Source: a virus
Strand: one strand, 5' to 3'
DNA length: 28,322 bases
IMG/VR virus record: IMGVR_UViG_3300006919_000308
Location: 1-28,322 of that record
Positions 2,783 through 26,673 of the stretch are shown in pieces (within the stretch, counting starts at the first letter, position 1; each line of letters starts with the position of its first letter). The notes beneath the pieces are model-generated. The model saw only the letters and a list, made by a program, of their open reading frames with translations, searched no databases and was not told the origin of the DNA. A program made the translations under genes and the position numbers.

Positions 2783-3892
2783 ATGCCAATTCAACAATTG
2801 CAGCATGGCCATGGTGTGTCTATTACACCGAATGACAACGCCTATATTTGGCAGCAACTATTCTATACCTATAAGGTTTACACTACACTGTATGTAGGCG
2901 GTGCGGGAGACCTGCACGTCTTGACGGCTGGTGGCGATGACATCACGTTTAGCTCAGTCCCTGCTGGAACATTCCTTCCCGTCCATGTGGCAAAGGTCTT
3001 TGCTAGTGGCACGACTGCTACGGGGATCATAGCCCTTGACATCACAACGCAGCCTACTGATTTTACTGGCTTGCTTGACACTTATAGTGGTGCAGCAGCT
3101 GCGTACTCTTTGCGTCAGTTGTCATCATCTTACTCTGGTAGTGCTATCCGTGTCCGCAGATCCTCCGACAACGCAGAGCAGGATATCGGCTTCGCATCTA
3201 ATGAGTTAGATACGACCGCCTTGACTGCCTTCTGCGGTGCTGGTAATGGCTTTGTCACAACTTGGTATGACCAAAGTGGAAATAGCAATGATGCAACTCA
3301 AACAACAGCAGCGAGTCAGCCGCAGATAGTTAGTAGTGGGAGTGTAATAACGGAAAATGGGAAGCCGAGTGTGCAGTTTGATGGGAGTAATGATTTTGTT
3401 CAGCACGCTGCCATTTCAGGTTCTGCTTTTAGCGGTTTTGCCGTATCTTCGGGTATTTACACAGCGTTTGGTGCGGTTATAAGTTCAAGGAAAAATCTTG
3501 GAGCTTTTACTCAAAATGGTTATGTTGTTCTGTATGGTGACGATTCTCCCACAAATACTTTTTTTGGTCAAACCAGAGATGGCACAACTTTTCAAATATC
3601 TCAATTTACAAATGGTCCAACAACGCAGCAATTAATCTCACTTATAAATGATAGTTTTGGAATCGGCTCAAGTACGCAAACATTATATCAAAACAATGTA
3701 CAAAAGGCAACTAACTCAACATATAATCCGATTTCGTATAGTGTTACAAATCAATATTGTATAGGCGCTGATAATTCAACCGGGAACTTTCTTAATGGCA
3801 AGATACAAGAAGTAATATTGTACACCTCTAATCAAATGAGTAACACAAATGGCATAAATAACAACATAAACGACTTTTATTCTATATACTAA
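2783..3892 (+). CDS. Tail fibre: spike-base domain plus lectin-like (GH54/LamG-type) domain
   Basis: 369 residues. Residues 1-90 resemble the GTA 'spike base protein RCAP_Rcc01079' type (LYVGGAGDLHVLTAGGDDI, then PAGTFLPVHVAKVFASGTTA). The same domain makes up the whole protein at 4144. From about residue 93 it resembles the catalytic-fold domain of alpha-L-arabinofuranosidase B (GH54, a concanavalin-type jelly roll): AAYSLRQLSS, AIRVRRSSDNAEQDIGF, VTTWYDQSGNSNDATQ near 161 and GKPSVQFDGSNDFV near 196. I cannot confirm catalytic residues, so glycan binding is as likely as hydrolysis. The C-terminus is Asn-rich. Base composition becomes more AT-rich after about 3330, hinting that the distal part was exchanged. 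Probably a receptor-binding tail protein. Confidence 0.75.
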   Translation: MPIQQLQHGHGVSITPNDNAYIWQQLFYTYKVYTTLYVGGAGDLHVLTAGGDDITFSSVPAGTFLPVHVAKVFASGTTATGIIALDITTQPTDFTGLLDTYSGAAAAYSLRQLSSSYSGSAIRVRRSSDNAEQDIGFASNELDTTALTAFCGAGNGFVTTWYDQSGNSNDATQTTAASQPQIVSSGSVITENGKPSVQFDGSNDFVQHAAISGSAFSGFAVSSGIYTAFGAVISSRKNLGAFTQNGYVVLYGDDSPTNTFFGQTRDGTTFQISQFTNGPTTQQLISLINDSFGIGSSTQTLYQNNVQKATNSTYNPISYSVTNQYCIGADNSTGNFLNGKIQEVILYTSNQMSNTNGINNNINDFYSIY

Positions 3893-4399: not shown

Positions 4400-6253
4400 A
4401 TGCAGATAGTAAACGCCATTGTAGGACAGGTGGCGTCCTGGACCAAGGGCGTCATTACTAGCTACTTTGCTAGGGTAAAGGCTGGCGGCTATCCAGCCGA
4501 GGCGCCTCAGTGCGTTCAGTCGGAAATCAACTCCCAGCCACTTCTAGATCAAGCATCCTTTGTTTTAATCCCATCGGGGTATAAAGAAGACATTGTCTAT
4601 TCACAAAAACCCACAGACGGAAGCGGAGATTTGACGTTCACCCGTGCGAGTGACGGCACCCGTGTAAATTCTGCGGGGTATGTTGAAAATGTGCCTTGGA
4701 ATTTAGCGTTGTATTCGGAGGATTTAGACAGTTGGAATGATTCAAACGGCACAAGTACGAACAACCAAACCATAAGCCCAGACGGAACGCAAAACGCTGG
4801 TAAGTTTACCCCAACTGCGTCAAGTGCGAACACAAGAACTTTTTTTTCCGTTACAAGTGGCTCAAATTACACTATGAGCGTGTATTTGAAAAAAGCGGGT
4901 ATTGATGAGGTGCAAGTGGATTTGGCTAATAGTGATTTTGGTGATGCCAATGTTGTTGTAAACCTAACAAGCGGAACAATTACGGCAACTGGTGGCGATA
5001 ACATAAGCCAAAACATAACAAGTGTAGGAAATGAATGGTATTTAGTTTCTTTGACCGCGTTATCAACCGCAACGAATGCCAGTTCCCCTTTAATTATTAG
5101 AAACAATCTTGGCTACGATGGTTCAAGTGGGTTTTACATCTGGGGCGCACAAGCCGTTTTAGGCTCAACCGCAAAGCCCTACTTCCCCACCACTGACCGC
5201 CAAAATGTCCCCCGTTTGACTTATGAGGGAGGGTGTCCGAGTTTGTTGCTTGAGCCGCAGAGGACTAATCTTGTAAAGCAGTCAGAATACTTTACTGTTC
5301 CACCTTGGTCGGAATATGTTTTTGGAGGTGCTTCGCTTACTCGCACATTTGGTTATGAGTCTCCTGAAGGAAATAATAATGCTTACAAATTTGATGTTGT
5401 TGTCGGAACAGGTGGTGTATTGCTAACCGATAATATCACAATTAATCCTGCCAATGCTCAAACTTTAAGCGTTTGGATGAAAGGCGAAAATGGTGGAGAA
5501 AAGGTATTGTTAGCATTACGAAATTCAGCGTCAGCAGGTACTTCTGGAAATATAATAACCTTAACAAGTGAATGGGCAAGATATGATGTAACATTAACGA
5601 CTGATGCTGCTGATAGAGGATTCCAATTTAGAATGTTAAGTTCTAATGGTGTCGTTGACCAAACGATATATGTCTACGGAGCGCAACTTGAAGAAGGAAG
5701 TTATGCAACAAGTTACATACCTACCTATGGTAGTAGTGTAACGAGGTTAGCAGATGTTGCTTATAAGACGGGTATTAGTTCGTTGATTGGGCAGACGGAG
5801 GGGACGATGTTATTGGATTGTGAAATACTTACAACTGACACACAAGATTTGTTGAGCATTCGCCCAGGGGGTACAAGTTCGGTGGTAATAGGCACGGCAT
5901 CAAATTTAATTTTGGGGTATGTCATTGAAGGCGCAACCATAATTTCAATGAATTTTGCAAATTACGCAATTAATACACGCTATAAAATTGCAATTGCTTA
6001 CAAGAACGGAGATTGTGCGTTGTATGTAAACGGAACACAAGCCGACACCGATACAACCGCGTTTACTTTTTCAACAGAATTAAGTACTTTGTATTTAGGT
6101 CAATCGCAATACTTTGGTAAATCTTCGTATAAAAATAACGAAGTTGTACTTTTCAAAACCCGCCTAACCAACGATCAACTGGAAGTCCTCACGGGCGATT
6201 CATACCCATCTTATATCGCAATGGCTGATGCCTTAACTTATTACTATGACTAA
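4400..6253 (+). CDS. Large LamG-type tail fibre, copy A
   Basis: 617 residues. An N-terminal region of ~75 residues is probably the attachment part. Module 1 (about 78-275) starts at LTFTRASDGTRVNSAGYVEN and reads as a carbohydrate-binding beta-sandwich. A linker KPYFPTTDRQNVPRL leads to LLLEPQRTNL (~282-291) and module 2. A C-terminal LamG/concanavalin-type domain begins near 455 (GQTEGTMLLD, then ALYVNGTQ and LYLGQSQYFG). The 6246 gene has the same order with low overall identity but conserved junctions. These tail-protein signatures (ASDGTRV, LLLEPQRTNL, GQTEGT) are familiar from Bacteroidota phages. Role: probably binding of surface glycans. Codon use after about 4560 is more AT-rich than the phage core genes, suggesting exchange. 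Confidence 0.75.
   Translation: MQIVNAIVGQVASWTKGVITSYFARVKAGGYPAEAPQCVQSEINSQPLLDQASFVLIPSGYKEDIVYSQKPTDGSGDLTFTRASDGTRVNSAGYVENVPWNLALYSEDLDSWNDSNGTSTNNQTISPDGTQNAGKFTPTASSANTRTFFSVTSGSNYTMSVYLKKAGIDEVQVDLANSDFGDANVVVNLTSGTITATGGDNISQNITSVGNEWYLVSLTALSTATNASSPLIIRNNLGYDGSSGFYIWGAQAVLGSTAKPYFPTTDRQNVPRLTYEGGCPSLLLEPQRTNLVKQSEYFTVPPWSEYVFGGASLTRTFGYESPEGNNNAYKFDVVVGTGGVLLTDNITINPANAQTLSVWMKGENGGEKVLLALRNSASAGTSGNIITLTSEWARYDVTLTTDAADRGFQFRMLSSNGVVDQTIYVYGAQLEEGSYATSYIPTYGSSVTRLADVAYKTGISSLIGQTEGTMLLDCEILTTDTQDLLSIRPGGTSSVVIGTASNLILGYVIEGATIISMNFANYAINTRYKIAIAYKNGDCALYVNGTQADTDTTAFTFSTELSTLYLGQSQYFGKSSYKNNEVVLFKTRLTNDQLEVLTGDSYPSYIAMADALTYYYD
5243..5265 (+). repeat. 23-bp repeat between fibre paralogues, copy 1
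   Basis: TTGTTGCTTGAGCCGCAGAG plus GAC is identical to 6957-6979. It encodes the conserved junction LLLEPQRT between modules. The flanks differ immediately on both sides. Confidence 0.9.
5789..5808 (+). repeat. 20-bp repeat between fibre paralogues, copy 1
   Basis: GGGCAGACGGAGGGGACGAT is identical to 7569-7588 and encodes GQTEGT at the entry to the C-terminal LamG-like domain. Surrounding DNA diverges. Confidence 0.9.
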
Positions 6254-7997
6254 TCCAAGTTTACAAATCGGAGACGGCAACTGGGCATACAAAGAGGACA
6301 ACCTTTTAGGCTATGCCATTAGCCCCGTCAATAATAAATTCCTACCCCGTGAGATGACCTTCACCCGTGCCTCTGATGGTACGAGAGTGAACGAAGATGG
6401 GTTGGTTGAAAATGTGCCGTTTAACTTGTTGGAGCAGAGTAATAGTTTTGATACAAGCCCTTGGTCAACAGCAAACGCAAGTGTAACGGGAGGACAATCG
6501 GGTTATGATGATTCTTCCGATGCTTGGTTAATTGAATCAACAAGTGCCAATGGTCGTGTAGACCAATCTGTTTCAAAAAGTGGAGTTCAAACTTTTAGCG
6601 TATATGCCAAAGCAGGAAATTCTAATTGGGTTAGATTGCGTTCAGATTATATTGGTGCAAATGCAGATGCTTATTTTGATTTGCAAAATGGAGTTGTTGG
6701 TTCAAGTTATAATGTAATCACAACACAAATTGATTCTGTTGGTAATGGATGGTATCGGTGTAGTGTGGTTTTCAATCAATCAATCACAGTTGTTCGTATT
6801 TATACAACATCCGCCAACAATAGTGCTGGTGGCTCTGGTAATAGTGCATACATCCAAGACGCACAACTAAACACAGGCAGCACCGTCAAACCCTACTTCC
6901 CAACAACCAATCGCCAAGATGTACCTCGCATAGATTATTCAAGTGGAACTGGGGCGTTGTTGCTTGAGCCGCAGAGGACGAATTTGGTGACATCTAGTGA
7001 GCAGTTTGACAATGGGGCTTGGGGTAAAAATCGTTGTGTTGCAACGGCAAACACTACAACAAGCCCAGACGGATATATTAATGCTGATACCTTAACATCC
7101 AATAACTCACTGGAATCTTATGCTGAAATAGCTGCCACACCAACGGCATCGCAAGTAGCGTATAGTTTTTTTGCAAAAAAGAACAACGCAAACTTTGTGC
7201 ATTCTTTGGCTTGGGATAGGGTAGCAAATGGCGCACGGCAATGGTTTGACATTCAAAATGGAACTGTTGGTTCTTCTACTACATTTGGAACTGGTTATAG
7301 TGTTGCATCTGCGTCTATTGTAGATTATGGAAATGGATGGTTTAGGTGCATTACGATTTACAATGTGACAAGCGGAGTTACCAATGGATTTAGGGTTTCA
7401 TTGTCTACAGCCAACGCTGATACAAATAGCCCAATAGGTACCGCACAATACTTTTGGGGCGCACAACTCGAAGCAGGTTCCTACCCCACCTCCTACATCC
7501 CCACAACATCCTCATCTGTGACCCGTTTGGCTGACGCTTGTTACCGAACTGGCATCAGCGAGTATATCGGGCAGACGGAGGGGACGATTTTTGTTGAGAT
7601 AAATGCTATTGATGTTACGGATTCTCGTGTAACAATAAGCGATGGAACAAGTTCAAACCGATTGATTTTAAGAATCCACTTTAATGGAAAAATTCAATGG
7701 GAAGGTGTCCAAGGTGGAACAGATGAATGGAATATAGAGAGTTCAATCGGTACCATTGTAAGCGGTTCAACTTATAAAATAGCAGCAGCGTATGGCACGA
7801 ACAATGTTGCTTTGTATGCAAATGGAACGCAAATAGGGGTGGATAATTCCGCAGTAGTTACAAGCGCATTAAGTATTTTAAGATTTGCTAATGCGGCTGG
7901 TGGTACACTTTATCATTGGAATCAATATACAAAACAAGCCGTCCTATTCAAAACCCGCCTTTCAAACACCGAATTAGCCGCCCTAACAACTTTATAA
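6246..7997 (+). CDS. Large LamG-type tail fibre, copy B (paralogue of the 4400 gene)
   Basis: 583 residues. The N-terminal segment (~36 residues: QIGDGNWAYKEDNLLGYAIS) differs from copy A. From residue 37 the order is the same: MTFTRASDGTRVNEDGLVEN, a beta-rich module, KPYFPTTNRQDVPRI, LLLEPQRTNL (238-247), a second module, then TRLADACYRTGISEYIGQTE (near 440) and a LamG-like domain with ALYANGTQIG and a conserved AVLFKTRLSNTELAALT end. It overlaps copy A by 8 nt in another frame. Two tandem receptor-binding genes with conserved junctions and diverged bodies suggest duplication with later module exchange. Both may be used together, or one could be a spare for a different host glycan; I cannot tell which. 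Confidence 0.75.
   Translation: MTNPSLQIGDGNWAYKEDNLLGYAISPVNNKFLPREMTFTRASDGTRVNEDGLVENVPFNLLEQSNSFDTSPWSTANASVTGGQSGYDDSSDAWLIESTSANGRVDQSVSKSGVQTFSVYAKAGNSNWVRLRSDYIGANADAYFDLQNGVVGSSYNVITTQIDSVGNGWYRCSVVFNQSITVVRIYTTSANNSAGGSGNSAYIQDAQLNTGSTVKPYFPTTNRQDVPRIDYSSGTGALLLEPQRTNLVTSSEQFDNGAWGKNRCVATANTTTSPDGYINADTLTSNNSLESYAEIAATPTASQVAYSFFAKKNNANFVHSLAWDRVANGARQWFDIQNGTVGSSTTFGTGYSVASASIVDYGNGWFRCITIYNVTSGVTNGFRVSLSTANADTNSPIGTAQYFWGAQLEAGSYPTSYIPTTSSSVTRLADACYRTGISEYIGQTEGTIFVEINAIDVTDSRVTISDGTSSNRLILRIHFNGKIQWEGVQGGTDEWNIESSIGTIVSGSTYKIAAAYGTNNVALYANGTQIGVDNSAVVTSALSILRFANAAGGTLYHWNQYTKQAVLFKTRLSNTELAALTTL
6957..6979 (+). repeat. 23-bp repeat between fibre paralogues, copy 2
   Basis: Identical to 5243-5265; same protein junction (LLLEPQRT) in the same frame position of the second fibre. 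Confidence 0.9.
7569..7588 (+). repeat. 20-bp repeat between fibre paralogues, copy 2
   Basis: Identical to 5789-5808; encodes GQTEGT before the C-terminal LamG-like domain of the second fibre. Confidence 0.9.
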
Positions 7998-9225: not shown

Positions 9226-9405
9226 ATGAACTACTTGGTTGGTCAGTCTATCTTAAATAACAACTATACGATAGAGGAAATCAGCCACGAGAGTGATGGA
9301 TCTGTATCCATTTGGATTAGGAACACAGAGAGAAATGAGATATTGCGTTGGAAGAGATTTAACTCAAATATGCCAGTGTCTTTTGAGTTCAATATAGATT
9401 TTTAA
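9226..9405 (+). CDS. Small conserved phage protein, unknown
   Basis: 59 residues from ATG 9226 (MNYLVGQSILNNNYTIEEIS). In-frame starts at 9181 (ATG) and 9202 (GTG) would add up to 15 residues and overlap the previous gene; the 9226 start is preferred because similar proteins, as I recall them, begin 'M.Y.(V/I)GQ', and it leaves a 13-nt gap after the previous stop. The C-terminus LRWKRFNSNMPVSFEFNIDF is a conserved-looking block. Small beta-rich protein; no membrane segment; function unknown. The stop overlaps the next ATG by 1 nt. Confidence 0.6.
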   Translation: MNYLVGQSILNNNYTIEEISHESDGSVSIWIRNTERNEILRWKRFNSNMPVSFEFNIDF

Positions 9406-9959
9406 TGAAGTCTACTTTCTATTTTTTAGTCATCCCATTGAACGGGGACGAATTCATGCGTCAAACAAAAGACGGCTTGATTGTCAATGCCAACATTGAC
9501 GACCATAAGTCAACGCAAAGATTGGCTAAGGTGCTTGCTTGTCCAGAAGGAACGGGTGTAGAAGAGGGTGATATATTGCTTGTACATCACAATATCTTTA
9601 GACCGTATTACGACATGAAGGGTAGACTAAGAAAGAGCAGCAACCTAGTAAAGGACAAGTTGTATTATGTCGAACCAGAGCGTGTATATATGTATATCCG
9701 TGATGGAAAAGAATACGTCTTTGGAGACTATTCATTCATAAAGCCAGTCAATAAGGATATGGATGGCTTCCAATATTCAACTAATGTGGAAAAGGAGATG
9801 ATTGGTGAAGTAGCATTGATTGAGCCTTCGTTCTCCGAGCAAGAGGAGGTTAGTATTGGCGATGTCATTACATTTACGAAGGACAGCGAGTATGAGTTTA
9901 GGATTAACGATGAGCGGTTCTATCGTGTACCAACTAAAAACATAGTAGCAGTATTATGA
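9405..9959 (+). CDS. GroES-like (co-chaperonin fold) protein
   Basis: 184 residues. One segment (about 38-97: KVLACPEGTGVEEGDILLVH through KLYYVEPERVYMYI) and the C-terminal part (about 132-184: GEVALIEPSFSEQEEVSIGD, ITFTKDSEYEFRINDERFYR, then VPTKNIVAVL) show the cpn10 pattern of 'G.V......G..(V/I)..GD.(V/I)....' ending in a hydrophobic '.I.AV(L/I)'. Phage GroES analogues (T4 gp31, RB49 CocO) help the host GroEL fold the capsid protein; a similar role is possible, but the protein is longer than GroES (~95 aa) and its first segment is unusual. It precedes the terminase genes with an ATGA overlap. Confidence 0.55.
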   Translation: MKSTFYFLVIPLNGDEFMRQTKDGLIVNANIDDHKSTQRLAKVLACPEGTGVEEGDILLVHHNIFRPYYDMKGRLRKSSNLVKDKLYYVEPERVYMYIRDGKEYVFGDYSFIKPVNKDMDGFQYSTNVEKEMIGEVALIEPSFSEQEEVSIGDVITFTKDSEYEFRINDERFYRVPTKNIVAVL

Positions 9960-19304: not shown

Positions 19305-20203
19305 TGGCACAAACCCCACAGCAATATTATAGTTCAGCGGCCAACTACGGAAGTGGTCAATATGTTACATTGAATGATGTAGTCAACAACTTCATGCTCA
19401 TGTATGTGGGTTATGACAAGTTGATTGACAATGTAGACCGATACAATGTATTATTCCACGCAAAACGTGCCGTACAAGAACTAAACTACGATGCCTTCAA
19501 AGAGATTAAGGTTTTAGAAACTTTAGTCAATGACGACTTGAAAGTCATATTACCTCAGCATTATGTAAACTATGTCCGTATATCATACGAACAAGGTGGA
19601 GTGCTGTTCAAGATGAGCGAGAACAAGACAGTCAACTGGGCTAAGAAGTACGAGCAAGACGAGAATGCAAACTACGCATACTTGTTTGATATCGATGGCA
19701 ATTTGATTGAGGAGCAGTCTGAACTAGATCGCATCCGTATTGAAGGCACCTATGGGCAGTACCCATACCCAGGACCTTGGTTTGGTCGTTGGGGATGGTT
19801 CTATAATGACTACTGGTACTTCGGTTACACATTTGGTGGATGGTACGGAGCTGATGCTTCTAACTTAAACAGCAACCCAACATTTGTGATCAATAAGGAA
19901 GATGGTGTCATCAACTTCTCTTCTGGACTAAAAGGTTCTACAATCGTGCTTGAGTACATTACTGATGGACTCGAAAGCGAGGACCCTTCTCAGATTATGA
20001 TTCATAAGTTTGCCGAGGAGTTTGTTTACGCTTACATCAAGTGGTGTATGCTTAACAACCGAATTGGTGTACAAGAGTATGTCGTTAGGCGTGCCAAGCA
20101 AGACAAATCTTCTTTGTTGAGGAATGCAAAGATTAGACTTAGCAACATCAATCCTAGAAGGCTTTTGATGGCTTTGCGTGGAAACGATAATTGGATTAAA
20201 TAA
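19304..20203 (+). CDS. P22 gp4-like head-tail connector / tail tubular protein (crAss-like type)
   Basis: 299 residues. The N-terminal helical part (VTLNDVVNNFMLMYVGYDKL, then FHAKRAVQELNYDAFKEIKV) and the beta part LPQHYVNYVRISYEQGGVLF match the P22 gp4-like connector of crAss-like phages, which forms a ring under the portal. The C-terminal helix contains FAEEFVYAYIKWCMLNNRIG and ends in SNINPRRLLMALRGNDNWIK. Residues about 149-184 form an extraordinary aromatic insertion: 17 of 36 residues are Tyr, Trp or Phe, with many Gly. It overlaps both neighbours by 1 nt (TAATG). Confidence 0.78.
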   Translation: MAQTPQQYYSSAANYGSGQYVTLNDVVNNFMLMYVGYDKLIDNVDRYNVLFHAKRAVQELNYDAFKEIKVLETLVNDDLKVILPQHYVNYVRISYEQGGVLFKMSENKTVNWAKKYEQDENANYAYLFDIDGNLIEEQSELDRIRIEGTYGQYPYPGPWFGRWGWFYNDYWYFGYTFGGWYGADASNLNSNPTFVINKEDGVINFSSGLKGSTIVLEYITDGLESEDPSQIMIHKFAEEFVYAYIKWCMLNNRIGVQEYVVRRAKQDKSSLLRNAKIRLSNINPRRLLMALRGNDNWIK

Positions 20204-23200
20204 TGGAGACAAAAAGAAATTTCATTAAGGCAATAATGAACAAGAGCCTTGATGACAGGCTCGTCCCCGATGGATACTATATTGATGCGTTAAACATTAA
20301 AGTTTCATCAACTGATGGCAGTGATGCTGGGACCGTTCAGAACTACTTGGGCAACACAGAGAAGGTAGATGTAAATACATTGCTTTCTGCCGAAGGGTTT
20401 ACTCCTCAAGTCGACATCTATCCAATTGGCTCATTTACCGACACCAAGAATAACAACATCTATTGGTTCTTAACATCGACCACCTATGACATGATTTTGA
20501 AATACCACGAGGCTGACAATGGAACGCCTACTGGTACGCTCATCATGGTAGAGACACGCTCGGGTGGAATCATGAACTTCAGCCGTGAGTACTTAATCAC
20601 TGGCGTGAACTTGGTTGACAACCTCTTGTTTTTCACGGATGGTCTAAACGCACCACGCAGAATTGATGTAGGAAAACAATACAGAGATACAGATATATCT
20701 GATGATAGTGTAAACGTCATCGTAAAGCCACCATTGGCTTCTCCTGACATTGAATTGATTTACGATCCAGCAGAGACATCGGATAACTTGGAAGACAAGT
20801 TTATTCGCTTTGCTTATCGCTACAAGTATGTCAACAACGAGATTAGCGCCATCTCTCCATTTTCTAAGACGGCATTTGAGGCACAAGCATTTGAGTTTGA
20901 CTTTGGCACTGGCCGAAACGAGTCAATGCGAAACAAGGCCAACTCAATCAACATCACGGTCGACTTAGGCTCTGACCAAGTAGAGAAGGTTGAGATTATA
21001 ATGAAGGATAGCCGCAACAAGAATGCGATGGTTGTCACTTCCATTGATCGTGCGTCTAATATTGCCTTCGGTCAGACTTATGTTCACAAGTTCAAGAACA
21101 ACAAGATTTTCTCTGTGCTGCCAGATAGCCAAGTAAATCGTTTGTTCGATAACGTGCCATTGCGTGCTAAGGCGCAAGACTTGATTGGGAGAAGGATTGT
21201 ATATGGAAACTATCGCCAATTCTTCGACATCAAGAAGGTTAGCGGAGAGGACATTGTTATGGACTTTGCTTTGTTGTCTAGAACTACTGCTACGACATCT
21301 GGCACTCCATATGAGACATTTAAGTCTGGAAGAAACTATGAGGTAGGTGTTGCTTACCTTGATGACTTCGGCCGTATGACTACCGTGCTTGAGTCTGAGA
21401 AGGGTGACAGCACAATCAATATTCCAATTACAAGTGCCGTCAATAAGAACGACTTGTATGTGAAGATATCAAATAAGGCACCTGAGTTTGCTTCAAAGTA
21501 TCGCTTGTTCTTGAAGCAGAATCGTGGAACTTACTACAACATCCTTCCAACTGGTATCGTGTTCGATGGACTATTTGTATACATACTGATACCGAAATAC
21601 GATATCGACAAGGTGAAAGAAGGCGACTTGATTTACATTAAGTCAACTCCATCTGGTGTTAAGCAAGATAGTTGGAAGTATAAGATTCTAGAGGCAGAGC
21701 AAAAGGAGAAGAACTTCTTGGGAGAGCAGAATGAGCAGATTCAAGACGAAGGGTTCTATATCAAGATTAAGGTAGAGAATGCTGGGTATTTCTCTGAGGA
21801 TAGCTTCTATACTTTGAAGGACGAAGGATATGGAGTAAACTCTCAAGTATCAGGCGTAAGAAAAAGCAATTCTATCATTGAGGGAACTAGAGATTTTCTA
21901 GATAAAAAATTAAACCCTCATGTAGATAAACCTATATTTTATGGTGATGGAACCAATCAGTCATTAGAGGTAATCACATTTAATAGTCAGCTAGCTAGTG
22001 CTGGACTTACTGGTAATTTTTCATATAAATTTGATACGGATAGGAGATTTGTTATTGAGATAACAGATGTAAACAAATTCTCTTGGAGGGATTATCGACT
22101 AAGCCAAAACTATGGCACTGACATTACGATGAACTCAGATGCATTGCCAACATTGTTCAATGGACAAGGGGGTAATATTCTAATTGCAAATCTCGGTGGA
22201 TTGAATTTCATATTTGGATATATTCATTGGGATACATCAAAGAATTACACAGTAGGGGATAAATTTATTCTTAACTATCGTGGATGGAGATATGGTATGT
22301 TTGGAACACCAATCTCTTTCGATTTTGATAGTAATTTGTATTGGAGTGGTGCCTATACTTGCGTGCCAGACAGAGGAACTAAGGCTAGTAACGATGGAGA
22401 TTTGTCCATCACTCCAGGGACAATAATCGAATTACAAGTAACAGAATCGTCTACACAGCCGCTACAGACATTCGTGTCTCAAGGGACTTACGAAAATATC
22501 GAGGAGTGGTTTTTTGAAGAGCGCATATATGAGAAATACGTTCAGTATACATCTGACGGAAAACCAGATGGAGCCACTGCTGTATTCTTTAGGCGTGGAT
22601 ATGCTGCACAATCAGTTCAGAAGAAAAATACTATACGGGTAATAAATGATGTTGGAGACCCTAATGGATATATAATGATGTGCATGAAAGGGTATGACAA
22701 TAACCCTGGAAGCATTGGCGATCAGCGTTCTATTCGTGTTAAGCTTAAAGTTCGTAGACCCGACAACATTACAATCCTCGAGACAGAAGGAGAGCCTTTG
22801 GTAGAAGACGTGTACTACGAACTGCCTAAGACTTACCCAATTCTTCCTGGCAATTTGCACGGAAAGATTTTGTCTACCGATACCGACCAATCAGTACTGA
22901 ATCCCGCCATCATTACTATCGAGGACTTTAATGCCATCACATTTGGAAATGGCATGGAATCGTCTATCATTGAGGATGTGTGGAATGGTCCAGAGTTATT
23001 GCCTTCTCCACGAGCTAGCGCATCAATTGACAGATATGAGCAAATTGATTCTGTTAACTCATTGACTTACAGCGGAGTATACAACGAGTCTTCGTCAACA
23101 AACGACTTGAACGAGTTTAACTTGTCGTTGGCTAACTTTAAGGCACTAGAAAAAGAGTATGGTTCAATTCAAAAATTGTATGCCCGTGATACGGACTTGG

Positions 23201-25836
23201 TTGTCTTCCAAGAAGACAAGGTTTCTAAAGTTCTGTTCGGCAAGAATCTGCTTTCTGACTCTGTTGGCGGTGGTGTTATTTCAAGTGTTCCAGAAGTTCT
23301 TGGGACGCAAATAGCATACTCTGCTGAGTTTGGCATATCTAGTAACCCCGAGAGTTTTGCTAAGTGGGGCAATGATGTATTTTTTACCGATCAGAAGCGA
23401 GGGGCTGTTTTGAACCTTACACAATCAGGCATTAAGGAAATATCTACTTATGGTATGCGTTCTTGGTTCCGTGATTTGTTTGACGAATCTCCAAGCACAC
23501 AGAAGCTTGGTGCCTTTGATCCTTACGAGTTCATGTATGTGCTTTCTTCAAATGAGATTGACATTGCTCAATGCTCGTTGACAGTTAGCAATAGCGAGAT
23601 TCTAGTGAGTGGAGATGCCTTCACAAATGGATTCTTGTTCTCAATCACATCTAACACCGATTGGGTTATCACATTGGTTGATACTGGAGATGGCACTAGT
23701 TGGCTTACATTGAATCAAACTAGTGGCAATGGTAATGCTGGTATCGCTGGTGAGATATCTTCAAATGTAGGGGCTGGAAGTAGCCGCTCTTTGACTATCC
23801 GTGTGACAGCTTGTGGTCAGAATACTGACATCACATTCACTCAGTCAAACGAAAAGCGCAAGGAGATTATCGTAGTAAGCACTGGAGATAAAACTAATGA
23901 TGGAGAGAAGTCTACTTTGCCATCATACAACTCTGGTCTTGGAAACATTGGGAACACTCCAGTGCCAATCTCTCAAGATGGCGACTATATCTTTACGGAT
24001 GTTCGTGGTGGTATCGTTGGCACAGATGGAATTCCAAACTCTGGAGATAGTGTAGACATCATTGGCTCTACTTCTTTCGGAGATGCTACCTTGCCAGAGA
24101 AGCCATTCAATCCAAACTTAGGTAACAAGATGTACTATCTTGATACCAATACAGTATACGACCCAACGCAAGGATCTGATATCATTGCTGCTGGAACAGA
24201 AGTACCAAGTTATACTTTAGTGGGAAGTGAGTATAAAGGCAACTTTACTTACTCAGCAACTAATGACTACTTGTACATCGTTATCGATTATACAAACGTA
24301 TTGAGCAATGGAGACGCAGTGACTAGCATTCCGGTGCCAACTAATGGGTTGCCAGAAGTGATTAATGTAGATAACTCGGCATCGATTGGAAACTATGTTG
24401 TGACTTACTCGTCTACCTCTACTGATATTCGATTTGTAGTAGAGAATGCCAATGGAGCAATTATCGCTGATAGCGGATATGTGAATGCCCCTAGCGCTCA
24501 GACATTGAGCATCAAGAAGACAGCTACTGGCCAAGATGTTGTTAAGGTTTACAATAATGATGTAACCGGAACCGACACCTTTGACTTGACAATTGGAGCA
24601 ATTGCTTTGACCTCTGCCTCAATTGGTAGCACTGGACACGATACCGCTTCTGAGTCTTGCGCTGGTTCTGGCACTCAGACAATCTACCACAACGGATCAA
24701 CGGCTGACCCATTGCCTGGTGACATCGTATACACTACCGCTGCTGGAACTACTGTGTTTGACGGAGGGGGTCAGTACTACACATCTAGTGGAAATACAAT
24801 TGTAATCACATCGGCTGGTGTAGTTCGATACATTGAATCTTGCACTTGCTCTGAAACAGAGGTGCCCACAATTACCCAAGGTGACATCTTTGTTGAGCAG
24901 TCAGTACCCATGTCGCTGAAAGTACAAGCTACAAATAATCCAACGTCTTTTGCTGCTGCTGGAAATTGCAGAGAGTTCTCGATGTTTGGAGGGGCAGATG
25001 GTGCTGTATTCAGTGGTGTCGATTGTACTACTGGAATTGCAAAAGAAATCTTCGTTTCTTCAAATGACACTATAACTCGGTGCTTCTGGATTGATTCTGT
25101 ATATATCGTTGGAGGTAGCGCTGACGCATCGTTTGAAGATGTTGGAGGGTGTACAAGTACATCACTTCCAGAAGGAGTAGAACTTGATACAGATACTGGT
25201 GTTATCAGTGGTACTCCTAGCAATCAAGGTAAATTTACATTCACCCTCAATGCTACGAACTGCTTTGGAACTAGTGCTGATGCGTCATTTGATATCACGG
25301 TTGGCCCTGGTGCTCCACCAACCACACCATTCTTGGTAGAGATGGATAGCCCACAGACTACATCTGCATTGGCTTGTGCCATTTCTAGCCCAACTTATGA
25401 CACAATGTACCACGATGGTATCTTGTCTTACCCTGTCATCCGTGACGTGGTATACGAGGACGAACTTGGTCTAATTTTGTTCGTAGGCGGAGACGACTGG
25501 TACTTGATGGAGAATGGAGTTGCCATTCAAGTTGGTAACGATGGTGTTGTATCTGATACTTTCCAGTGCGACATTTCACCTAGCGGTCCCGTTACTCCAA
25601 CATGGACATCTGGTGGATCGGTTGGTTATGACGCAAGTGACTCGCTAGTATCTTGTGCAGCAGGTAGCACAGTTGCCATATACTACACTGGCACATACGG
25701 GGTTAATCCAGGTAAGTTGTCATTGTCTGCAAGTGGTAGCCCCTATGCTCCTGCTGGATGGTATAAGCACCCAACTAATGCAACCACCCACTATTGGGAT
25801 GGAAGCCAATGGACTACGGCAGCTGACTGCCCATAA
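20203..25836 (+). CDS. Giant tail protein: crAss-like stabilisation/muzzle protein with BACON and Ig-like domains
   Basis: 1877 residues, the largest gene here. The N-terminus (KAIMNKSLDDRLVPDGYYID, then ALNIKVSSTDGSD and VQNYLGNTEKV) matches the tail stabilisation (P22 gp10-like) protein of crAss-like phages. Residues up to about 1115 are mostly beta-rich. About 1125-1216 is a BACON domain (FSITSNTDWVITLV, SWLTLNQTSGNGN, ITFTQSN), a carbohydrate-associated Ig-like fold typical of Bacteroidota and their phages. About 1555-1702 is a putative Ig domain (LPEGVELDTDTGVISGTP) apparently interrupted by a ~65-residue Cys-containing insert (about 1590-1653). Cys-bounded modules recur at 1486-1547, 1725-1789 and, more diverged, 1818-1876. 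No signal peptide. Probably the tail hub/needle with glycan-adhering C-terminal arms. Confidence 0.82.
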   Translation: METKRNFIKAIMNKSLDDRLVPDGYYIDALNIKVSSTDGSDAGTVQNYLGNTEKVDVNTLLSAEGFTPQVDIYPIGSFTDTKNNNIYWFLTSTTYDMILKYHEADNGTPTGTLIMVETRSGGIMNFSREYLITGVNLVDNLLFFTDGLNAPRRIDVGKQYRDTDISDDSVNVIVKPPLASPDIELIYDPAETSDNLEDKFIRFAYRYKYVNNEISAISPFSKTAFEAQAFEFDFGTGRNESMRNKANSINITVDLGSDQVEKVEIIMKDSRNKNAMVVTSIDRASNIAFGQTYVHKFKNNKIFSVLPDSQVNRLFDNVPLRAKAQDLIGRRIVYGNYRQFFDIKKVSGEDIVMDFALLSRTTATTSGTPYETFKSGRNYEVGVAYLDDFGRMTTVLESEKGDSTINIPITSAVNKNDLYVKISNKAPEFASKYRLFLKQNRGTYYNILPTGIVFDGLFVYILIPKYDIDKVKEGDLIYIKSTPSGVKQDSWKYKILEAEQKEKNFLGEQNEQIQDEGFYIKIKVENAGYFSEDSFYTLKDEGYGVNSQVSGVRKSNSIIEGTRDFLDKKLNPHVDKPIFYGDGTNQSLEVITFNSQLASAGLTGNFSYKFDTDRRFVIEITDVNKFSWRDYRLSQNYGTDITMNSDALPTLFNGQGGNILIANLGGLNFIFGYIHWDTSKNYTVGDKFILNYRGWRYGMFGTPISFDFDSNLYWSGAYTCVPDRGTKASNDGDLSITPGTIIELQVTESSTQPLQTFVSQGTYENIEEWFFEERIYEKYVQYTSDGKPDGATAVFFRRGYAAQSVQKKNTIRVINDVGDPNGYIMMCMKGYDNNPGSIGDQRSIRVKLKVRRPDNITILETEGEPLVEDVYYELPKTYPILPGNLHGKILSTDTDQSVLNPAIITIEDFNAITFGNGMESSIIEDVWNGPELLPSPRASASIDRYEQIDSVNSLTYSGVYNESSSTNDLNEFNLSLANFKALEKEYGSIQKLYARDTDLVVFQEDKVSKVLFGKNLLSDSVGGGVISSVPEVLGTQIAYSAEFGISSNPESFAKWGNDVFFTDQKRGAVLNLTQSGIKEISTYGMRSWFRDLFDESPSTQKLGAFDPYEFMYVLSSNEIDIAQCSLTVSNSEILVSGDAFTNGFLFSITSNTDWVITLVDTGDGTSWLTLNQTSGNGNAGIAGEISSNVGAGSSRSLTIRVTACGQNTDITFTQSNEKRKEIIVVSTGDKTNDGEKSTLPSYNSGLGNIGNTPVPISQDGDYIFTDVRGGIVGTDGIPNSGDSVDIIGSTSFGDATLPEKPFNPNLGNKMYYLDTNTVYDPTQGSDIIAAGTEVPSYTLVGSEYKGNFTYSATNDYLYIVIDYTNVLSNGDAVTSIPVPTNGLPEVINVDNSASIGNYVVTYSSTSTDIRFVVENANGAIIADSGYVNAPSAQTLSIKKTATGQDVVKVYNNDVTGTDTFDLTIGAIALTSASIGSTGHDTASESCAGSGTQTIYHNGSTADPLPGDIVYTTAAGTTVFDGGGQYYTSSGNTIVITSAGVVRYIESCTCSETEVPTITQGDIFVEQSVPMSLKVQATNNPTSFAAAGNCREFSMFGGADGAVFSGVDCTTGIAKEIFVSSNDTITRCFWIDSVYIVGGSADASFEDVGGCTSTSLPEGVELDTDTGVISGTPSNQGKFTFTLNATNCFGTSADASFDITVGPGAPPTTPFLVEMDSPQTTSALACAISSPTYDTMYHDGILSYPVIRDVVYEDELGLILFVGGDDWYLMENGVAIQVGNDGVVSDTFQCDISPSGPVTPTWTSGGSVGYDASDSLVSCAAGSTVAIYYTGTYGVNPGKLSLSASGSPYAPAGWYKHPTNATTHYWDGSQWTTAADCP

Positions 25837-25848
25837 TAAGAATAACGA

Positions 25849-26673
25849 ATGGCTAACTATACATTAACATATTCAGAGGAGTTGCTAGGATGGACATCGT
25901 TCCACTCCTACACTCCCGACTGGATGGCTGGGCTGAACAATGACTTCTATACTTTCAAGAATGGTAAGGTATGGAAGCATAATGTGAACACTACTAGAAA
26001 TAACTACTATGGCGTTCAGTATGACACCATAATAGAGACCGTGTTCAATGTGGAGCCTGACCAGCCAAAGATGTTTAAGACAATTAAGCTGAAGGGCAAG
26101 AGTGCACAACCTTGGTCTGCTGTTGTTACATCGGATTTGTCCGATGGACTTATTGCTGTTAGTGGATACGAGAAGAAAGAAGGCAACTGGTATGGTTATG
26201 TTCGTAGAGAAGATGGCGACCTAGACCCAACATTCTTGTCAGTCCAGGGTCTTGGCATTGTCGACACGGCAACTACCGTTCTTGACACTGTCGTCATAAC
26301 GATAATTGGCAATGTGACACAAGGCGTGTCCGTAAAGACCCAATCACCACCTCAAAATAACGGAGACTTATTATTTGCTGGTGTTATATCTGGCTCTAGC
26401 ATCACATCACTTGGGCCTAAGTTAGGACAAGTGAGTACGATATCTTATGATTCTGTAACGAACACAACAACCATAGAAATGGTCAACCACCCATACACTG
26501 GAGCAGCTCCAACGCCTCCATCTATTGGTGAGTATTTGATTTCTGCAAAAAGTTCAGTGGCCGAATCTTATGGATTGCGTGGATCGTACATGAATGTTCG
26601 TCTAACAAACTCTGAATCAGAACACGTAGAGTTGCTATCTATAGGCTCTGAGATATTTAAGAGTTACCAATAA
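25849..26673 (+). CDS. Tail-associated protein following the giant tail protein (crAss-like context)
   Basis: 274 residues. The start YSEELLGWTSFHSYTPDWMA, then LNNDFYTFKNGKVWKHN and RNNYYGVQYDTIIETVFN, matches the 'YSE...GW.SF.S..PD....LNN.F.....G..(W/Y).HN' region that in related phages can be the C-terminal part of, or the gene next to, the stabilisation protein. Beta-rich; no signal or membrane segment. It begins 12 nt after the previous stop, and from its pattern is probably a partner in the short tail. The second half (about 130-215) is less familiar and may be an inserted beta domain. The stop overlaps the 17-bp promoter repeat. Confidence 0.7.
   Translation: MANYTLTYSEELLGWTSFHSYTPDWMAGLNNDFYTFKNGKVWKHNVNTTRNNYYGVQYDTIIETVFNVEPDQPKMFKTIKLKGKSAQPWSAVVTSDLSDGLIAVSGYEKKEGNWYGYVRREDGDLDPTFLSVQGLGIVDTATTVLDTVVITIIGNVTQGVSVKTQSPPQNNGDLLFAGVISGSSITSLGPKLGQVSTISYDSVTNTTTIEMVNHPYTGAAPTPPSIGEYLISAKSSVAESYGLRGSYMNVRLTNSESEHVELLSIGSEIFKSYQ

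Follow-up and report, generated by a model that had tools for sequence, protein, structure and literature searches.

The best structural match of the large protein described below is gp44 of phi-crAss001, which is assigned to Pfam crAss_MUZ (PF25731) and crAss_MUZ_C (PF25729) and solved in PDB entries 7qok and 7qol. The crAss001 record names gp44 a 'stabilization protein', and it is a single chain of 1371 aa. PMC10172136 describes the muzzle as a hexamer located at the tail tip, with a ring-joining domain, a propeller of seven blades, two Ig-like domains and the crass fold. The same paper assigns it the part of gatekeeper in the ejection of genome and cargo and notes its high conservation across the crassviruses.

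Homologs of the muzzle core and of the C-terminal muzzle family (crAss_MUZ_C, here MUZ_C) are present in Cellulophaga phages Calle/phi38:1, Tenacibaculum phage Gundel and the Flavobacterium elemo phages. In all of these the muzzle is unsplit, with MUZ_C in the same ORF as the core. Another Cellulophaga phage, phi13:2, has MUZ_C in the next gene; its two proteins, gp120 and gp121, carry a structural-protein annotation that is based on similarity to phi8:3.

The DNA analyzed here, which we refer to as the window, is a stretch of 28,322 nucleotides from a viral record. Its muzzle is split as in phi13:2, unlike those of Calle/phi38:1, Gundel and the elemo phages. In contrast to the single chain of gp44, it occupies two genes and carries about 760 aa of additional modules on a new C-terminus. 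Where phi13:2 has another sandwich and a Big_9/cadherin-type domain, the window has a BACON domain and an interrupted Ig domain. We consider it very probable that this is a two-gene muzzle of a crAss-like phage of the flavobacterial type, the large gene encoding the core and the modules and the small gene encoding the rest of a propeller blade and the C-terminus. The features are as follows.

20203-25836, + strand: large muzzle ORF (P0001), 1877 aa; Pfam crAss_MUZ E 3.5e-17, phrog_14478 E 9.5e-185
20203-23547, + strand: canonical muzzle core, residues 1-1115; breaks off at FDPYEFMYVLS, partway through a propeller blade
23575-23859, + strand: BACON domain, residues 1125-1219; 3zmr_B Z 11.4 and 12.1, home-built profile E 3e-35
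23866-24288, + strand: 'mid' domain, residues 1222-1362; relatives that lack BACON conserve it too
24289-24609, + strand: beta-sandwich, residues 1363-1469; structural match to a SIDT1-type sandwich
24625-24846, + strand: small beta module 1 (GDxVY type), residues 1475-1548; phrog_21885, repeat of 1706-1776
24856-24963, + strand: first part of the Ig domain, residues 1552-1587; from structure and profile
24964-25164, + strand: inserted Cys module, residues 1588-1654 (67 residues); Cys 1589, 1608, 1627 and 1650
25165-25308, + strand: second part of the Ig domain (LPEGVELDTDTGVISGTP...), residues 1655-1702; Pfam He_PIG
25318-25530, + strand: small beta module 2 (GDxVY type), residues 1706-1776
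25561-25833, + strand: C-terminal module whose end (1851-1872) resembles DUF2510, below the cut-off (19 bits, cut-off 24)
25834-25848, + strand: intergenic stretch, TAA TAA GAA TAA CGA, with three in-frame stops before the next ATG
25849-26673, + strand: small muzzle ORF (P0002), 274 aa; encodes the rest of the muzzle, on its C-terminal side

The Large Muzzle Protein

The ORF at 20203-25836 is a crAss-like muzzle (tail stabilisation) protein. Its match to Pfam crAss_MUZ scores 62.3 bits, with a cut-off of 27, and the two top structural matches of the large piece are the gp44 chains 7qok_A and 7qol_P (Foldseek E 3e-16; Z 14.4-14.7, with a model that is confident only in part). Residues 27-1096 of the model, which are P0001 residues 46-1115, superpose on residues 51-1197 of 7qok_A (Z 14.4, 451 residues), and the span aligned in the second gp44 chain, 7qol_P, runs from 53 to 1198. 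Profile A1 did not reach gp44 among the PDB sequences and, because the core profile aligns with gp44 only weakly (1049-1167, 9.8 bits), the mapping of the large piece to gp44 is based on Pfam and on structure. The Foldseek list for the whole first model consisted mostly of strings of Ig domains and was uninformative. No Pfam crAss_MUZ_C match is present in the large ORF, and the same is true of the phi13:2 muzzle and of one other relative (L011).

In both AF2 models the confidence is mostly 28-60 in the blades that follow the crass fold (P0001 about 910-1119). Such values would fit a propeller that is missing some of its strands; they would fit a plain modeling failure equally well, and they prove nothing.

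The nearest isolates to the large muzzle are flavobacterial phages (Cellulophaga, Tenacibaculum, Maribacter and Flavobacterium). A full-length relative that is 60% identical and has the same modules (L004) is located in a 63-kb metagenomic virus, and the C-terminal 778 aa of the large muzzle alone had no tblastn match among the phages. In tblastn searches against phages, the small muzzle protein matched 96 records (75 named Flavobacterium) and the large protein matched 87 (68 named Flavobacterium); seven records in these listings have F. psychrophilum hosts.

The Rest of the Muzzle Is in the Next Gene

The canonical muzzle chain breaks off at residue ~1115, within a hairpin of the propeller, and is continued by the ORF at 25849-26673. 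In the small protein, positions 1187-1223 of crAss_MUZ align with residues 2-38 at 23.7 bits, which is short of the cut-off of 27, and crAss_MUZ_C aligns with residues 49-121 at 46.4 bits, over its cut-off of 27. The profile of the small-piece family matches gp44 residues 1199-1297 (E 3e-10), and P0002 can be aligned over residues 5-274 of its 274 with the C-terminal end of the elemo muzzle, which is unsplit. The two pieces are complementary, i.e., the model of the large piece ends at gp44 residue 1197/1198 and the small-piece profile starts at 1199. In sequence alignments, too, the split small proteins begin at the point from which the unsplit chain of Calle runs on. As read from the gp44 sequence, residues 1197-1199 appear to form a short, tight turn between two stretches. 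The core and MUZ_C are on one polypeptide in gp44 and on two in the window, which makes this a split variant and not a canonical muzzle.

The same arrangement recurs in relatives. In the 90 muzzle ORFs compared, MUZ_C is a separate ORF in 66, is in the same ORF in two and was not seen in 22, all of which have at most 1444 nt of DNA left on their stretch. Of the 68 loci in which MUZ_C was found, 66 thus have it as an ORF of its own, a figure that is neither a census of the order nor a population frequency because the query was built from split-type proteins and the best 80 of at least 569 matches were taken. The counts leave out L013 and L017, which are on the same contig as L004. Five loci (L020, L050, L051, L086 and L092) have tails identical to that of another locus; they are inside the 90, and they are left out of an 83-tail alignment and a 73-row tree. 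In the 14 whole records searched, crAss_MUZ_C is above the cut-off once in each, 13 times in a separate ORF of 242-310 aa and once, in Calle, inside the muzzle ORF. In Calle (L010) and in L007, the Pfam crAss_MUZ_C match follows the conserved core.

Some of the related loci have additional peculiarities. For example, the separate MUZ_C ORFs at L044:5848-6885 and L046:8902-9897 have about 90-100 extra N-terminal residues before the muzzle part, as if a domain had been added on the other side of the break as well. The muzzle of Maribacter phage Panino (L100:4001-7914) is annotated as two ORFs of 946 and 320 aa with a different, earlier break, for which a frameshift, an intron or a sequencing error are possible explanations.

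Modules at the Break

The first module after the break is the BACON domain. Pfam PF13004 matches it at residues 1161-1214 with 16.7 bits (20.4 in another search), which is below the cut-off of 25. At the same place, three of the eight relatives tested reach the Pfam cut-off, namely L016 (27.0 bits), L022 (25.0 for PF13004 and 25.9 for PF19190) and L046 (27.1 for PF19190), and the other five are below it. The domain is confidently predicted in two overlapping AF2 models and superposes on the BACON of the Bacteroides ovatus GH5 xyloglucanase BoGH5A (3zmr_B 42-131) with Z 11.4 and rmsd 1.5 over 87 residues in one model and with Z 12.1 in the other. By its predicted fold, residues 1125-1219 are thus a BACON domain, although the identity to the enzyme's copy is 22% and the copy in the window is on a phage tail-tip protein.

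A home-built profile from seven relatives was searched against the 90 muzzle ORFs and all 3396 six-frame ORFs of the loci. It matched 38 of the 90, all at exactly the same place as in the window, and it matched nothing outside the muzzle ORFs and no shuffled ORF. A Pfam scan of the 83 tails at E 0.01 gave lower numbers (BACON in 21 and BACON_2 in 12). In the tree, the BACON-bearing cores form one clade with support of 97/93. In PMC6949934, crAssphage also has BACON domains in the region of its tail genes, with tandem repeats near the tail genes and single ones away from them; in contrast, the window has a single BACON within the muzzle gene itself. The same paper describes the BACON of the solved glycosidase as a spacer that links domains and does not itself bind carbohydrate. 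By analogy, the BACON described here is best read as a spacer.

The 'mid' domain that follows is more widespread, as its profile matches 59 of the 90 muzzle ORFs plus the ORF immediately after the muzzle in seven loci. In seven loci (L021, L027, L036, L038, L039, L043 and L047) the muzzle stops behind BACON, with the mid domain and further modules encoded by the next ORF. The beta-sandwich at 1363-1469 superposes on the SIDT1-type sandwich with Z of about 10 at a sequence identity of about 10%. The DUF2510-like end (GWYK...YWDGSQW, window 25753-25818; 19 bits, cut-off 24) is on a phage tail protein.

The Ig domain is in two pieces that are 67 residues apart. Pfam He_PIG matches only its second half (residues 1651-1700, 38.5 bits, cut-off 24), and a single continuous He_PIG domain is not present. 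In the predicted structure, however, 83 residues spread over a span of 151 (1552-1702) superpose on residues 33-117 of 4nzj, an uninterrupted Ig domain of 85 residues (Z 12.1, rmsd 1.6), and pLDDT is mostly 69-87 in these blocks. The 83 residues cover one Ig domain of 85, and therefore a complete Ig is built from the two pieces. An Ig profile made without the insert columns was also run on the window and its relatives. It gave an unbroken match in L043 (79 of 79 positions, E 5e-13) and in L036, and a match in two pieces in the window, L004, L014, L015, L016, L018, L019, L020, L027 and L047; the Ig of L038 is cut off by the end of its contig. When the single Ig sequence was scanned against viral contigs nothing was found, and the two-row alignment A3 as the query gave three new loci. 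The domain-in-domain insertion therefore holds, backed by the predicted structure, the homologs and the two uninterrupted relatives. The possibility of two separate complete domains is ruled out by the superposition and by the insert-free profile.

Copies of the Cys module occur outside the Ig domain, at the C-terminus of other muzzles. Those in L087 and L092 were found in the first round of the search (E 0.003) and that in L088 only after iteration; the profile had no match among shuffled ORFs. Judging from these weak scores, the insert is probably a mobile tail module that has been placed in an Ig loop. The insert in L018 keeps cysteines 3 and 4 without 1 and 2, whereas that in L027 keeps 1 and 2 without 3 and 4. 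This complementary loss suggests disulphide pairs 1-2 and 3-4.

These results agree with the initial annotation in placing a BACON domain at about 1125-1216 and an Ig domain at about 1555-1702 with a Cys-containing insertion of about 65 residues in the muzzle (stabilisation) protein. Its coordinates were right within a few residues, and the structure prediction supported its reading of one Ig in two pieces. The same annotation regarded the fusion of BACON to this protein as unusual. That view has to be given up because the survey of relatives indicates that the BACON-muzzle fusion is ordinary and standard within one clade of this virus group.

Evolution of the Split

The distribution of the split is more complicated than a single event would suggest. 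A single clade of all split muzzles is rejected by the AU test (p-AU 0.006, with long branches present in the tree), and the unsplit elemo muzzle falls among split rows ('otherIg'), i.e., in the non-BACON clade. Because of this position, the split either arose twice or arose once and was reversed by a re-fusion in the elemo lineage. The mid domain is present in the BACON clade and in the other clade, and this suggests that the muzzle break with its first modules is old. Among named records, the closest are Pervagoviridae, Pachyviridae and the elemo phages; Crassvirales is absent from their taxonomy lines, and crAss001 enters the tree only as a very long outgroup branch.

A Muzzle Probably Made from Two Genes

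The data directly show the homologies of both pieces, their complementarity, their separate coding and their recurrence in relatives, as well as the interrupted Ig. We infer that in the virion the pieces form one joint propeller with six projecting arms that contact the host distally. The large protein would run from the core through the first strand or strands of a late propeller blade. At the site of the tight turn in gp44 (1197-1199) the chain would leave the propeller and run into a string of modules, with BACON as the spacer, then the mid domain, the sandwich, the small beta modules and the Ig with the Cys module in its loop. The small protein, with the remaining blade strands and the C-terminus, would most likely dock in trans and close the propeller. 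From the break, the modules would extend out of the muzzle as flexible arms, and a hexamer like that of gp44 would give each virion six of them. BACON would mainly serve as a spacer, and contacts with the host surface would be made by the distal modules; the likelier ones are the distal Ig, the Cys module and the small beta modules.

Other explanations are less attractive. Stop-codon readthrough, a frameshift, or splicing of the RNA or the protein might join the two ORFs into a single product, and the ORFs are indeed close together and in the same frame in the window and in several relatives. However, three in-frame TAA codons separate them in the window, and in other loci the frame between the muzzle genes varies, the gap measures between -33 and 3795 nt, and other ORFs can precede the MUZ_C gene. 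Simple readthrough is excluded by the three stops together with gaps that reach 3.8 kb in other loci, and the variable frames and gaps likewise rule out joining by a frameshift. An Rfam search of the window gave no match, such as a catalogued intron, and we regard production as one protein as most improbable.

The initial annotation described a stabilisation protein with glycan-binding modules fused to its C-terminal side on the tail tube. A simple fusion of this kind, with BACON and Ig added to a complete protein and coating the tail tube, agrees with the presence of both modules. The protein is not complete at that point, however, and its remainder is the next gene. In addition, the muzzle is at the tail tip, as a hexamer, in PMC10172136, and the BoGH5A BACON is described as a spacer in PMC6949934; consequently, we think a simple fusion is quite unlikely. 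A somewhat different explanation is that the small MUZ_C protein has ceased to belong to the muzzle and that BACON itself plugs the open propeller blade. BACON is indeed directly after the break in 38 of the 90 ORFs, and the seven loci with the muzzle ending right after BACON and the next modules in a separate ORF would fit such a plug. Nevertheless, all 14 records have retained a single MUZ_C, which speaks for a role that has been kept, and relatives in the other clade have a different sandwich in place of BACON. A BACON plug is therefore unlikely.

Other Genes in the Window

The ORFs at 2783-3892, 4400-6253 and 6246-7997 are probable tail fibre genes, all three with matches to PHROG tail families. 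The first has an ArabFuran-catal/LamG-like match (41.2 bits), and the other two share PHROG matches and look like paralogs. The C-terminal part of the ORF at 9405-9959 resembles Cpn10 (21.4 bits, Pfam cut-off 21.1). The ORF at 18579-19304 matches the SU10-type adaptor (33.3 bits, cut-off 27), which is consistent with a short-tailed phage.

Concluding Remarks

The pairing of BACON with the muzzle is already normal for this virus group, whereas we found no description of a split muzzle or a two-gene gate in the openly accessible literature that we searched. The muzzle may be a split beta-propeller gate in which the small protein completes a blade in trans and the break serves as a port for exchangeable modules, a proposal to which we give even odds. 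The same balance applies to the idea that the modules at the break, including BACON, other sandwiches, the interrupted Ig and the small Cys modules, are exchangeable and are mounted covalently on the muzzle in some viruses and as a separate downstream protein in others. The small piece could also be an assembly checkpoint or the latch of the gate.

For annotators, we recommend the name muzzle C-terminal subunit for a MUZ_C gene that lies downstream of a muzzle of this kind, and the split may explain why some muzzles look truncated or over-long in annotations. In conclusion, a branch of these viruses that breaks the gate chain inside a blade, keeps both halves and carries modules on the break is a natural dissection of the gate, and a possible coupling of host-contacting modules to the opening of the gate becomes testable.
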